Positions 8,175 to 51,230 of a stretch of DNA of 63,546 bases are shown piece by piece. Under the pieces are notes generated by a model, which made no database searches, was not told the DNA's origin, and was given only the letters and a program-made list of their open reading frames with translations. The position numbers and the translations under genes are program-made. Every line of letters begins with the position of its first letter. Within the stretch, counting starts at the first letter, position 1. The DNA lies in IMG/VR virus record IMGVR_UViG_3300020122_000568, positions 1-63,546 of that record. The stretch is one strand, 5' to 3'. The DNA comes from a virus.

Positions 8175-8539
8175 TGATCGAGATCGCCGCCAACGTCATG
8201 TACGACGAAGATGAACTCGTCGCCAAGCTCGGCCTGAGCCGTTCGTGGCTGCGGCGCACCGTCGGTGGCTTGCTGGCAGGGCGTAAGCGTGTGTACCGTG
8301 GCGCAGACCTCTTGGCGAGGATGCGCCCGTGCAGCACAAGAAACGCTTCACCGTCAGCGTCGAGCGGCGTGGGAAGTATTGGCAGGCCCGGGTCTACTTC
8401 GAGGGCGAAGGCGGGAACAGCCGGCGATTCTCTACCGGCGTCGCGATCGGAGAGCGGTGGCGGGAGTCTAAAAGAGCGGCTGAGAAGGTGGCGGACGAGC
8501 ACGCCGCGAAGCTCGCCAATCAAACATCGGTCGCAGTAG
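8171..8539 (+). CDS. Excisionase-like HTH protein overlapping the integrase
   Basis: The GTG at 8171 overlaps the preceding TGA. The first 50 residues (YDEDELVAKLGLSRSWLRRT, then RVYRGADLLARM) form a MerR/excisionase-type winged-helix pattern. The frame does not stop there: it runs 211 bases into the integrase gene in another frame, giving a low-complexity Ser/Arg tail to residue 122. Position just before int fits a recombination directionality factor. Confidence 0.55.
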   Translation: MMIEIAANVMYDEDELVAKLGLSRSWLRRTVGGLLAGRKRVYRGADLLARMRPCSTRNASPSASSGVGSIGRPGSTSRAKAGTAGDSLPASRSESGGGSLKERLRRWRTSTPRSSPIKHRSQ

Positions 8540-9450
8540 ATGCCGACAACGATCACTCGCTGGACGCTGTAGCCGAGCGCATGCTGCACCAGAAGATGGC
8601 CGATGGCCGACGCGATCGAGCTGTCGAATTCTTGGCGCAGACGATCGACAGCCACGCCAAGCCATTCTTCGGCGCCACGCGCGACGTGCGCACGATACGC
8701 CGGCGTGACCTCGAAGCGTTCAAGGGTGACCTGCGCTCCCAGGGATACGCGCCGACGACCATCAACAACGCGCTCACCGGCATTCGTCAGATCTTGAAGT
8801 TCGCGTACGAGGTCGAGGAATCGATCGAGGCGATTCCGATCGTAAAGAACGTCGAGGTCGACAAGCGCGGCAAGGGCAAGCCGATCACCCCCGAACAGGC
8901 GGCGCGCTTCATTCGTTCGTTCTTGCCGAACGAGCGCGAGGAGCGCGAGTTCAACCTCTTCTTGCTCAACACCGGCCTGCGCAAACACGAGTGCCTGGCC
9001 ATCCGGTGGGACTGGGTCGACTGGAAGGCGCGCGAGGTCAGCATCCCAGCCGAGGTGCGCAAAGGCGGCAAGCCGCAGCGCGTGCCGACGCAATTGAATG
9101 AGGTTGCGTTCGGCCTGTTGGAGCGCCGCCGAGCTCGTCCAGAGCAGCCGAGCAAGCAGCGCGTGTGGTGGCAGTTGAAGACGTACGACGATGCCAGGCG
9201 GCGCGCGGCCGCGAAGGCGGGCATCGCCGGATACCGGCATCACGACGCCAGGCACACGCGCGCGACGCAATTGGGCGCCGAGGGAGCGACCGCGATCGAC
9301 CTGCGCGACCAGATGGGCTGGTCGACGCTGGCGATGGTAAATCGTTACACGCACCCCGATAAGGCGCGCGCGAAGAAGATGGCTGACAGAGTTCAACTCG
9401 GCGCCAGCCCGTCACGTCGAACCCGTCACAGTGGCAAAAAAGATGAATAA
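8329..9450 (+). CDS. int: Tyrosine recombinase (phage integrase)
   Basis: 373 residues from GTG 8329, with GCGAGG nine bases upstream. An N-terminal arm-binding beta region is followed by a SAM-like core-binding domain (about 75-165) and the catalytic domain: Arg218 in TGLRKHE, Lys in the VRKGGKPQRVP strand, His305-x-x-Arg308 in HDARHT, Trp331 in GWSTL, and nucleophile Tyr340 in NRYTH. It would integrate the circular genome at a host attB. The candidate attP lies at its 3' end. Confidence 0.95.
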   Translation: MQHKKRFTVSVERRGKYWQARVYFEGEGGNSRRFSTGVAIGERWRESKRAAEKVADEHAAKLANQTSVAVDADNDHSLDAVAERMLHQKMADGRRDRAVEFLAQTIDSHAKPFFGATRDVRTIRRRDLEAFKGDLRSQGYAPTTINNALTGIRQILKFAYEVEESIEAIPIVKNVEVDKRGKGKPITPEQAARFIRSFLPNEREEREFNLFLLNTGLRKHECLAIRWDWVDWKAREVSIPAEVRKGGKPQRVPTQLNEVAFGLLERRRARPEQPSKQRVWWQLKTYDDARRRAAAKAGIAGYRHHDARHTRATQLGAEGATAIDLRDQMGWSTLAMVNRYTHPDKARAKKMADRVQLGASPSRRTRHSGKKDE

Positions 9451-47000: not shown

Positions 47001-47498
47001 TCAGTGCCCTCCCAGTGCGCGACACAGACGAAACCACGGCGGAACGTAGCAACGCCCGTCCATCGCCGTGCGCTCGCCGGCGCCTTCGCAGTCGCCGACC
47101 GCATCGGGATCATAGATCACAGCGCCCGCCGCATCGCGGCACGGCGGCACACAGTTGCCGGCGAGTTCGCATATGGTTGGGTCGTGGCACACGACGTTGC
47201 CGCTGCCGCAGCGCGGGCCGTCGCAGATGCCGTCGGTCGTGCAGATGAGGCCCGCGGCGCAGATGGGGCACACGAGGTTGCCCACGCACTCGGGCGCGTA
47301 GGTCACGTCGAGGTGGCAGTCGTTCTCGGGGTCGCAGGGGTAGCCGACGCCGCCCGCCGCCATGTCCGCCGGCGCGCCAGCATCGACGCCCGCGTCATCG
47401 CCGCCGGACGCCAGCGCCAGCAGCGACACGGCCTGCGCGTCAAGGCCAGCGGGAGCGCAGCCGGAGAGGACCAGCACGAGGACCGCGAACGACTTCAT
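47001..47498 (-). CDS. Cys-rich lipoprotein
   Basis: 165 residues. Signal MKSFAVLVLVLSGC with Cys14 (+2 Ala). An Asp/Gly/Ala-rich linker precedes a domain with about 14 cysteines (CDPENDCHL, CVGNLVCPICAAGLICTTDG, CGSGNVVC). The style resembles Cys-rich surface lipoproteins of Myxococcota. Likely expressed from the prophage and exported; TTATC-type coupling with the next gene suggests one operon. Confidence 0.7.
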   Translation of the reverse strand: MKSFAVLVLVLSGCAPAGLDAQAVSLLALASGGDDAGVDAGAPADMAAGGVGYPCDPENDCHLDVTYAPECVGNLVCPICAAGLICTTDGICDGPRCGSGNVVCHDPTICELAGNCVPPCRDAAGAVIYDPDAVGDCEGAGERTAMDGRCYVPPWFRLCRALGGH

Positions 47499-47811: not shown

Positions 47812-48486
47812 TCAGCGGCCCACGCGCGCCAGCAGCTTTCGCACCGTCGTCGCCTGCCACGCGCCGCCGCGCTTGGTGCGCAGCCCTTCCGCCGTGAGCG
47901 TGCGGCCGATGGCGCTCAGGTTCACGCCCGCCGCCGCGAGTTCCCGCGCGCGCGCCAGCACGCGCTGTTCGGCCTCATCCTCGACGAACACGTCGCCCTG
48001 CCGACGCCATCCGAGCGGCACCGCGCCGAGCCGCGCGCCGCGCGCGCGCTTGTGCCGCAGCGCCTCGCGCGTGCGCTCGCCGATGGCCTCGCGCTCCCAC
48101 TGCGCCAGCACGCCGAGCATGTTCAGCACCATGCGCCCGGCGGCGGTCGCCGTGTCGATGGCCTCACCGACCGACAGCAGCGCGCCGCGGCCCTCGGTGA
48201 AGTAGCGCTCGACGAGCTGCGCGAGGTCTCCTACGCTGCGCGTCAGCCGGTCAAGCTTGGCGACCAGCACGCCGTCGGCGCCGCCGGCGCGCAGCGCCTT
48301 CAACGCGCGCCGCAGCCCCGGGCGCCGCAGCGACTTGGCGCTGATGCCCGCATCTTCCTCGACCGCGACGAGCTCGTGGCCGTACAACTTGGCGTAGGCC
48401 TCGCCGCGGGCGCGCTGCGCCGCGAGCGAGACGCCTTCGGTTGCCTGTTCCTCAGTGCTGACGCGGCAATAAAGCACCAACCGCAT
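47812..48486 (-). CDS. Serine recombinase (resolvase/invertase family)
   Basis: 224 residues. N-terminal catalytic domain: YCRVSTEEQ with nucleophile Ser10, GADGVLVAKLDRLTRSV with the conserved D-R-L-x-R, and the E-helix region MVLNMLGVLAQWEREAIGER. A short C-terminal HTH (GVNLSAIGRTLTAEGL) binds DNA. It could invert or resolve DNA, or act as a second integrase. Start at ATG 48486 or 48495. Confidence 0.9.
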   Translation of the reverse strand: MRLVLYCRVSTEEQATEGVSLAAQRARGEAYAKLYGHELVAVEEDAGISAKSLRRPGLRRALKALRAGGADGVLVAKLDRLTRSVGDLAQLVERYFTEGRGALLSVGEAIDTATAAGRMVLNMLGVLAQWEREAIGERTREALRHKRARGARLGAVPLGWRRQGDVFVEDEAEQRVLARARELAAAGVNLSAIGRTLTAEGLRTKRGGAWQATTVRKLLARVGR

Positions 48487-48522
48487 GCCGCGCACCCCGG
48501 GTTGTACTTGACGGGCGTCTAC

Positions 48523-49261: not shown

Positions 49262-49795
49262 ATGTCGCTTCGAAGCTCGACCGGGACTCAACTCGCGCGC
49301 GCCGAACTCTACGCATTCGACGACAAGGGCAACCGCATCGCCACCGCTGGCCGCGGCGCGAACGTCATGCCGGTCAAGGAGACGCGCACGTACGTCGAGC
49401 CGGCGACCGTCAGCGAGAGCCAAGACGAACGCCGCGCGCGCGAGGGCCGTCAGGCACGTATCCTCGCCTCGCTCACCGATGACGAGGCGACGGTGCTCCA
49501 CTATCAGGGCAAGCTCGTGTGCCGGATCCAGAAGCCTCGCGAGGTGGCCGGCGGCGACGTCGCGGAATATTTGAACGCGGGCTACGTGCTCAAGCCGGGG
49601 TCGGTGCGATTGCTCGAGCGCGATGGGTTGCCGCCGGTCGAAGTGGCGACCGTGATCGGCTTCGAAGAGGTGCAGGTCGAGCGGCTGAGCTACGACGAGA
49701 TCGCCGAGCACTTGGGCGTGAGCATCCACATGGTCAACAAGCTTGTGGTGTCGGCGAATAAGAAGTTGCGCGCGCTGCGATCGGTCATTTTTTGA
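49262..49795 (+). CDS. Regulator with C-terminal sigma-region-4-like HTH
   Basis: 177 residues behind AAGGAGG. The C-terminal 35 residues, LSYDEIAEHLGVSIHMVNKL, form a sigma-4/LuxR-type HTH; the rest is alpha/beta with no named domain. It is rightward amid leftward genes, so it probably has its own promoter (see repeats upstream). Its end overlaps the convergent gene by 11 bases. Confidence 0.7.
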   Translation: MSLRSSTGTQLARAELYAFDDKGNRIATAGRGANVMPVKETRTYVEPATVSESQDERRAREGRQARILASLTDDEATVLHYQGKLVCRIQKPREVAGGDVAEYLNAGYVLKPGSVRLLERDGLPPVEVATVIGFEEVQVERLSYDEIAEHLGVSIHMVNKLVVSANKKLRALRSVIF

Positions 49796-50252
49796 TCGAG
49801 CCCAACTGCGGACGCGGCTGCGGAGACGGCACCCCCACTATCGACTTTCGTTCGCTGCGGAACTCTTCATAGGAGCGCAGTCGTCCTTCCAGAAATCGCT
49901 GGTCGTAGTCGGCTGCGGCGCGCTCGCGATCGCTGCCAAGACTGGCTCTGTCGACATGCTTGTTCGCGTGGTAGGCCCGCGCCTCCTGACGATGACCGCG
50001 TAACATGTGGTCATCTTCGATTTCGCGTTGCTCAACATCGGTCAGCAGGTGGATCACATTCAATCGACGTTTCGTGTGGATTCCTCTCCTGTAGAGATAT
50101 CGGCGCAAGCGAGGCTCGATCCTCTTCTTGTCGATCCCGGATGTCTCCACCAGCCATTCGTCACTGACGTCATCACCACGCTTCAATCGATCGACGTGCG
50201 GCTTCAGTCTCACCCATGCCGCTTCAATTTCGTATTTCGATAGAATCGCCAT
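49785..50252 (-). CDS. Hypothetical protein, end of the leftward early operon
   Basis: 155 residues behind GGAGATAATCA. Start AILSKYEIEAAWVRLKPHV, then RLRRYLYRRGIHTKRRLNVI and VIHLLTDVEQREIEDDHM; charged and helical with an acidic/basic tail. Possibly nucleic-acid binding. No family recognised. Confidence 0.6.
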   Translation of the reverse strand: MAILSKYEIEAAWVRLKPHVDRLKRGDDVSDEWLVETSGIDKKRIEPRLRRYLYRRGIHTKRRLNVIHLLTDVEQREIEDDHMLRGHRQEARAYHANKHVDRASLGSDRERAAADYDQRFLEGRLRSYEEFRSERKSIVGVPSPQPRPQLGSIKK

Positions 50253-50290
50253 TGATTATCTCCATGTTTTTTTCCATCTCCCCCCATTGG

Positions 50291-50395
50291 GGGCCATGCC
50301 TTGCCATGCCACGCCTAGCCCCGCCTCGCCCGACCAGGCCTTGCCTGACCACGCCAAGCCGAGCCTTGCCCTGCCGAGCCCATCCAGACCTTGCC
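50291..50395. repeat. Pentanucleotide array, 21 units of NNNCC (GGNNN on the minus strand)
   Basis: Twenty-one consecutive pentamers each end in CC on the plus strand without a phase slip; 17 are NNGCC. The array starts five bases beyond the stop of the 50400 gene. On the transcribed (minus-sense) RNA it reads GGNNN repeated, a string of two-layer G-quadruplex motifs. The variable positions are not random codons and no frame explains them. Confidence 0.9.
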
Positions 50396-50399
50396 CGGA

Positions 50400-51038
50400 C
50401 TATTTCGTCCTCTTCACAGTCGCCGTAAACATTCCGTACATTCCCGGCTTCTTCGGCGACGATGGGCGCCAATCGCCGACGCCGGCCTTTCCCGCCCCGT
50501 ACCACAGCGTCTCAATGCGATCCTCTCCACTGAGCAGATCCTCATTGTCGGTCTCGAACATGGTCGTCGCCGACCAGTGATCAAACCGCGGACGTACGCG
50601 CGTATGAGACTTCCCATTGATGTTGCACGGCTTGACGAACAATGCGAATCCCAGCGCGCGCACTGCTTGGCAATGCTCCGCGAAGCCGCCGTCGATACGC
50701 TCGACGTCGGCGCGCGGAATGGTCTTGCCGTTCACGAACAGAGGTACGTAGAAGTCACTGAAGAACATCGACTGCGAAGCGGACTTCAATGTCTTCTTGT
50801 TTCCGATGCTCACGCCGCTGCCCGCCTTCAGCAGAGCAGCCAGAAAATTTTCTGCTGGGATGCAGACACACTCGTCGTTGACGTAGAGATACGACTTCCA
50901 CGTGTCAGCCGGGTGCCGGTCATCGCCGGCCTTTCCTCCCTTGCGTCCACGAGCTGCTATTGCGTCGCGCGCCTCGAGATTGTTGTGGTGCATGAGCAAT
51001 GGCGTCGTGCCTTCGATCGTGACTTCGAATCGCTCCAT
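50400..51038 (-). CDS. Conserved phage protein with GTTPLLMH motif
   Basis: 212 residues. The N-terminus FEVTIEGTTPLLMHH and the CIPAENFLAALLKAGSG segment match a pattern I recall in uncharacterised proteins beside recombination genes of many tailed phages. The alternating strand/helix layout is compatible with a ferredoxin-like RAMP fold, but that is a guess. It is bracketed by the two pentanucleotide arrays. Confidence 0.65.
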   Translation of the reverse strand: MERFEVTIEGTTPLLMHHNNLEARDAIAARGRKGGKAGDDRHPADTWKSYLYVNDECVCIPAENFLAALLKAGSGVSIGNKKTLKSASQSMFFSDFYVPLFVNGKTIPRADVERIDGGFAEHCQAVRALGFALFVKPCNINGKSHTRVRPRFDHWSATTMFETDNEDLLSGEDRIETLWYGAGKAGVGDWRPSSPKKPGMYGMFTATVKRTK

Positions 51039-51063
51039 CGTTTGCTTACCTCTCGCGATGTGC

Positions 51064-51105
51064 CTCTCTCGGCTCTCTCGGAGTATTCCGAACTGGCCGA
51101 ACTGA
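51064..51105. repeat. Two 9-bp tandem duplications upstream of the 51038 start
   Basis: CTCTCTCGG twice (51064-51072, 51073-51081) and CCGAACTGG/CCGAACTGA (51088-51096, 51097-51105). They lie in the 122-bp leader between array two and the gene, so they may be operator sites. Confidence 0.5.
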
Positions 51106-51160
51106 ACACCATCGCGCGTCGGAATGGGTTCCGGCGCGCTGTGCTGTCATGCTCCATTGG

Positions 51161-51230
51161 AGCCCTCGCCATGCCGCACCCCGCCCGGCCTTACCGCACC
51201 TCGCCTGGCCGCGCCCAGCCGAGCCCAGCC
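51161..51230. repeat. Pentanucleotide array, 14 units of NNNCC
   Basis: A second array of the same type: fourteen in-phase pentamers ending in CC. It begins five bases beyond the stop of the 51235 lipoprotein gene, the same relation that array one has to its gene. The sequence differs from array one except for the GG doublet period. Confidence 0.85.

Follow-up and report, generated by a model that had tools for sequence, protein, structure and literature searches.

Viral Interference Programmable Repeat (VIPR) is a CRISPR-like system by which phages find and silence the DNA of rival phages (preprint bioRxiv 2026.04.26.720920, 2026; PMC13142463). Vipr proteins bind guide RNAs, termed vrRNAs, that consist of 9-16 YNNGG repeats followed by a 3' tail, and the NN pairs of these guides read double-stranded DNA with one base skipped. 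Satellites and prophages are the rivals against which phages use VIPR, and a vap (VIPR accessory) gene accompanies the system (PMC13142463). With its gapped guide code, VIPR is proposed to be an ancestor of class 1 CRISPR.

The DNA analysed here, hereafter the window, is the 63,546-nt IMG/VR record IMGVR_UViG_3300020122_000568, a temperate phage that encodes YqaJ, RecT, a tyrosine integrase, terminase, portal, major head protein, tape measure, DnaB and endonuclease VII. Two arrays with GG every five bases, together with a gene of the phrog_4652 family, almost certainly constitute the VIPR locus of this phage. Each anatomical point of the published description was matched, namely vrRNAs upstream and downstream of vipr, hairpin tails and a putative vap (PMC13142463). 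The locus is a new, divergent example of an already published system and not the unnamed element of the original prediction, since both a name and a mechanism, those of the vrRNA guides of VIPR, are on record (PMC13142463).

With the VIPR loci of SUSP1 and of a Pseudomonas fulva prophage (type II), the window shares a Vipr RAMP protein, GGY/NN vrRNAs on both sides of it, a structured 3' tail, a putative DNA-binding vap and carriage by a phage. However, SUSP1 Vipr is only distantly related to window Vipr, and the tail reported as a pseudoknot in the SUSP1 clade (PMC13142463) takes the form of a simple hairpin in the window, with a stem of 5 bp and an AAT loop. The Cas7/Csm3 backbone of class 1 CRISPR-Cas is likewise an RNA-binding RAMP protein with which window Vipr shares its predicted fold, whereas the window has no CRISPR array and no cas operon, and its guide is made of pentamers rather than a contiguous spacer. 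No Cas family was matched among the window proteins scanned, and the arrays are degenerate pentamers, not CRISPR repeat-spacer units. The sites of TRAP (trp RNA-binding attenuation protein) are purine-rich triplets spaced by roughly 5 bases and bound by an oligomeric protein. They resemble VIPR in this spacing and mode of binding, but the protein family differs and TRAP sites are without hypervariable, target-coding positions.

Elsewhere in the window, we observed a serine recombinase in addition to the tyrosine integrase (47812-48495 and 8329-9450), a 12-base repeat, AAGTCAGGGACC, present in 26 copies within an ORF with a DUF6745 domain (1136-1452), and a lipoprotein-like ORF with DAGVDAGAP-type repeats (47001-47498). 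This repeat style is common in Myxococcota and gives a weak hint at the phage host.

Arrays, repeat code and tail hairpins

On the minus strand, GG recurs every five bases 21 times in succession at positions 50291-50395 and 14 times at 51161-51230, as the original prediction had counted; 100 order-3 Markov simulations of the window reached at most 6. Neither strand of the window contains a further run of seven or more, the plus-strand maximum being 3. The final GG of each run opens the tail and belongs to it, which leaves 20 complete units in the downstream vrRNA (one of them GGA) and 13 in the upstream vrRNA. Both arrays begin just past a stop codon, as had been noted, with 4 bases between the stop of the preceding ORF and the first GG (TAG-TCCG-GG and TGA-ATGC-GG). 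The original prediction was right that the GG period reflects selection and not tandem duplication. Of the three positions that it took to be free, positions 4 and 5 indeed vary, but the third is C or T in 32/33 units (19/20 downstream, 13/13 upstream).

The statistics of the code were computed from 6630 units in 585 arrays selected on GG alone. Position 3 is C in 75.5% and T in 20.4% of these units (a pyrimidine in 96%), and the published GGY/NN rule is thereby re-derived. Away from the tail, the NN pairs have an entropy of ∼3.9 bits out of 4, which falls to 3.2-3.8 bits in the last two or three units, the tail-proximal pairs being strongly biased to AA, AT or GA. Moreover, NN composition is nearest to codon positions 1-2 of phage genes on the sense strand (best of six frames, r 0.65, lowest divergence), as predicted if the skipped bases are wobble positions.

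The upstream guide lies inside the published 9-16 units, a range for characterised vrRNAs and not a strict definition, and the downstream guide, with its one GGA, lies outside. Since runs of 7-22 GGs are common among 636 related arrays, the 20-unit guide looks like a length variant and not a failure of membership. We tentatively suggest, as a possibility that we rate below even chances, that the window and two related loci, L184 and L199, form a VIPR sub-lineage whose 18-21-unit guides read a target of ∼60 bp, with the last 2-3 NN pairs serving as a tail signal rather than in targeting.

Both vrRNAs end, on the minus strand, in a hairpin recognised from sequence and fold. In the downstream vrRNA this is CCCCC-AAT-GGGGG, directly after the last GG (approximately 50281-50293), and in the upstream one GCTCC-AAT-GGAGC (approximately 51151-51163). 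The two 5-bp stems differ in sequence with pairing kept, and the AAT loop is common to both; the tail of L199 has a GGGCC/GGCCC stem and the same loop. Of 304 distinct tails, 102 have a hairpin abutting the last GG, compared with a mean of 18 in shuffles (maximum 28) and 23 when 3' halves were re-dealt (maximum 39). Folded in isolation, the upstream tail and array did no better than shuffles, and Rfam gave no match in eight sub-clade loci, window included. In two loci, neighbouring vrRNAs are set apart by conserved structured separators that come after the tail hairpins (L186, 3850-3920 and 4715-4790; L184, 3730-3795 and 3848-3910). They contain a second stem-loop plus another short hairpin, gave no match in Rfam, and are possible processing elements.

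Vipr and its probable accessory protein

The vipr gene (50400-51038, minus strand) encodes a 212-aa RAMP-family protein that carries the sequence GTTPLLMH. It matches phrog_4652, a family of unknown function (E 6e-15), and has no match in Pfam. A single-sequence search of the window protein against SUSP1 Vipr gave only E 0.09, and the same approach found no relatives in viral contigs, nor did tblastn in named phages; a profile was required. The profile of the Vipr family matched PDB entry 36pp, 'SUSP1 Vipr protein', with E 6e-42, and that of the closest sub-clade with E 1e-17. The AlphaFold2 model of window Vipr (pLDDT 90, pTM 0.86) was compared with the PDB by Foldseek, and the top matches were all CRISPR Cas7/Csm3 chains, those of type VII and III-A complexes first. 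One of the three strong viral matches is annotated as 'Cas system-associated RAMP superfamily protein'. The nearest relative found belongs to L184, an Actinomycetota MAG; it has 47% identity, and its locus follows the same plan.

A profile of vipr-neighbouring genes was seeded with the gene downstream of vipr in L184. In each of 112 loci, this profile picked out a single ORF, which always shares the strand of vipr and mostly lies just downstream of it. In the window, the sole ORF that it matched is at 49785-50252 (minus strand, 155 aa), with a statistically weak E of 0.001-0.009; a 4-sequence profile gave no match to this downstream ORF, which only the larger profile reached. Its AlphaFold2 model (pLDDT 94) predicts a winged helix with long helices, and the PDB neighbours of the model are mostly winged-helix regulators, none below E 0.04. 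From profile and model, this ORF probably encodes vap, as a distant member of the vipr-neighbour family. An ORF on the opposite strand (49262-49795) adjoins the putative vap and has a C-terminal sigma-70 region 4-like HTH.

Association of arrays with Vipr in viral genomes

A DNA pattern in which only the thirteen GGs were specified retrieved at least 120 loci from IMG/VR, most of which hold several degenerate arrays. Among the matches listed, a Vipr homolog was present in 91 of 120 loci and none was found in 29, and 336 of 343 arrays were on the strand of the Vipr gene. For the reverse test, loci were fetched by the protein alone, 61 of the 80 returned were examined, and arrays were sought within 2 kb. 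GGY arrays were found in 59/61 loci, with 219 of them on the strand of vipr and 0 on the opposite strand, and in 0/61 shuffled loci used as control. The sense-strand RNA and the link to the GTTPLLMH gene that the original prediction had put forward are supported; the loss of the GG period in related genomes with the gene, which it had set against itself, was not observed, the arrays being kept in all but two of the related loci.

A Vipr homolog, gp49, is also encoded by Mycobacterium phage Donkeykong (NC_051648.1; L140 and L273, ∼36.9-37.3 kb and 37.2-38.0 kb). Three GGYNN arrays overlap its neighbour gp48, whose annotation as a hypothetical gene is probably wrong.

Clean GGYNN arrays, some of them followed by terminator-like hairpins, were also seen on viral contigs of up to 105 kb with no Vipr by profile (L032, L037, L049, L052, L060, L128 and others). 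This was the case for 10 of 13 records tested, one of the ten (L099) being only a simple repeat. Such arrays may be orphan guides acting in trans, may be served by divergent Viprs, or may reflect contig gaps. In L132, L133, L187, L188 and L192, the arrays are dense, and consecutive vrRNA-like runs are joined by a GGAAC/GGATC-type unit with the phase shifted by 2 bases, a layout similar to that of the staggered VIPR arrays on record (PMC13142463).

Alternative readings, targets and proposed mechanism

The locus could be a recognisable VIPR that has lost its function in this phage, and the one GGA unit in the downstream array, together with the lack of a target found for the guides, would fit such decay. 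We consider it unlikely, given that Vipr is full length with the invariant residues of the family present, that both arrays are unbroken and that both tails keep stems paired in different sequences. That the arrays are two-layer G-quadruplexes, or an element for stalling, placed around a phage gene is very improbable. Two-tetrad quadruplexes can in principle form from G2N3 repeats, but they leave unexplained the pyrimidine at position 3, the NN pattern, the tail hairpin and the link with a Cas7-like protein. Quadruplex spacers are rejected: the arrays are almost certainly the two vrRNA guides of a VIPR system. Polymerase stalling, 3'-end protection and recombination spacers, also offered in the original prediction, were likewise wrong or unsupported, whereas its option that the arrays bind a protein agrees with what is reported for vrRNAs (PMC13142463).

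The prospect that the arrays are coding repeats or small ORFs is smaller still, close to nil. At least one frame is open in some arrays, and gp48 of Donkeykong is an array region annotated as a gene; however, repeats of 5 bases do not keep step with triplet codons, stop codons fall in several frames of many arrays, and NN changes freely with no codon-wise constraint. A simple-repeat reading was rejected along with these.

No target of either window guide was found in the window, in IMG/VR viral contigs or in 2.2 Mb of fetched loci. Among 297 genomes of the phylum of the L184 genome, a single match with 1 mismatch, at chance level, was seen for one stretch of the upstream guide. The eight 3' NN pairs of this guide matched 42 sites in viral contigs, which we discarded as chance since they fall in unrelated proteins and agree at ≤21/26 guide bases; the EAKRGAID-like peptide at these sites is spelled by the NNxNN pattern itself. 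One match to the nine 5' NN pairs of the downstream guide was rejected, agreement ending right after them. When 419 guides with runs of 10-24 GGs, taken from the fetched loci, were compared with the same 2.2 Mb at skips of 0-3, no excess appeared at any skip, and one L186 guide found no target in 301 genomes of the family of L186. As the searches had one target sequence per guide and were not directed at a known host, these misses weigh little.

The window and its family display the anatomy, the protein family and fold, the co-occurrence, the GGY/NN rule and the tail hairpin of VIPR, and by analogy with the published system (PMC13142463) transcription, ribonucleoprotein assembly, the one-base skip and silencing would be expected at this locus as well. 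The two arrays would be transcribed as vrRNAs of ∼90-140 nt, one upstream and one downstream of vipr, each repeat tract being capped by its 3' hairpin. The Cas7-like Vipr may then coat the vrRNA, holding GGY and presenting NN, presumably with one subunit per GGYNN unit, a stoichiometry that is our own suggestion. In reading double-stranded DNA, the NN pairs would skip one base from each pair to the next (NNxNNx...), and the complex, aided by the winged-helix Vap, could keep genes of a rival phage or prophage from being transcribed. As no targets were found, this regulatory effect on a rival is taken from the published system only.

The re-derivation of the GGY/NN code, the strand rule and the protein link from raw sequence and with no advance knowledge of VIPR, across hundreds of uncultivated-virus loci, provides independent support for the published work (PMC13142463). 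The findings that go beyond its main text are the two-way co-occurrence at large scale, the statistics of the tail hairpins, the bias of the units next to the tail, a guide of 20 units and, on contigs where no Vipr was found, arrays that resemble vrRNAs. Donkeykong offers an unrecognised VIPR in a cultured mycobacteriophage that is useful for bench tests. The hairpin statistics, the bias near the tail, the longer guides and the Vipr-less array contigs are concrete, testable additions to the biology of VIPR.
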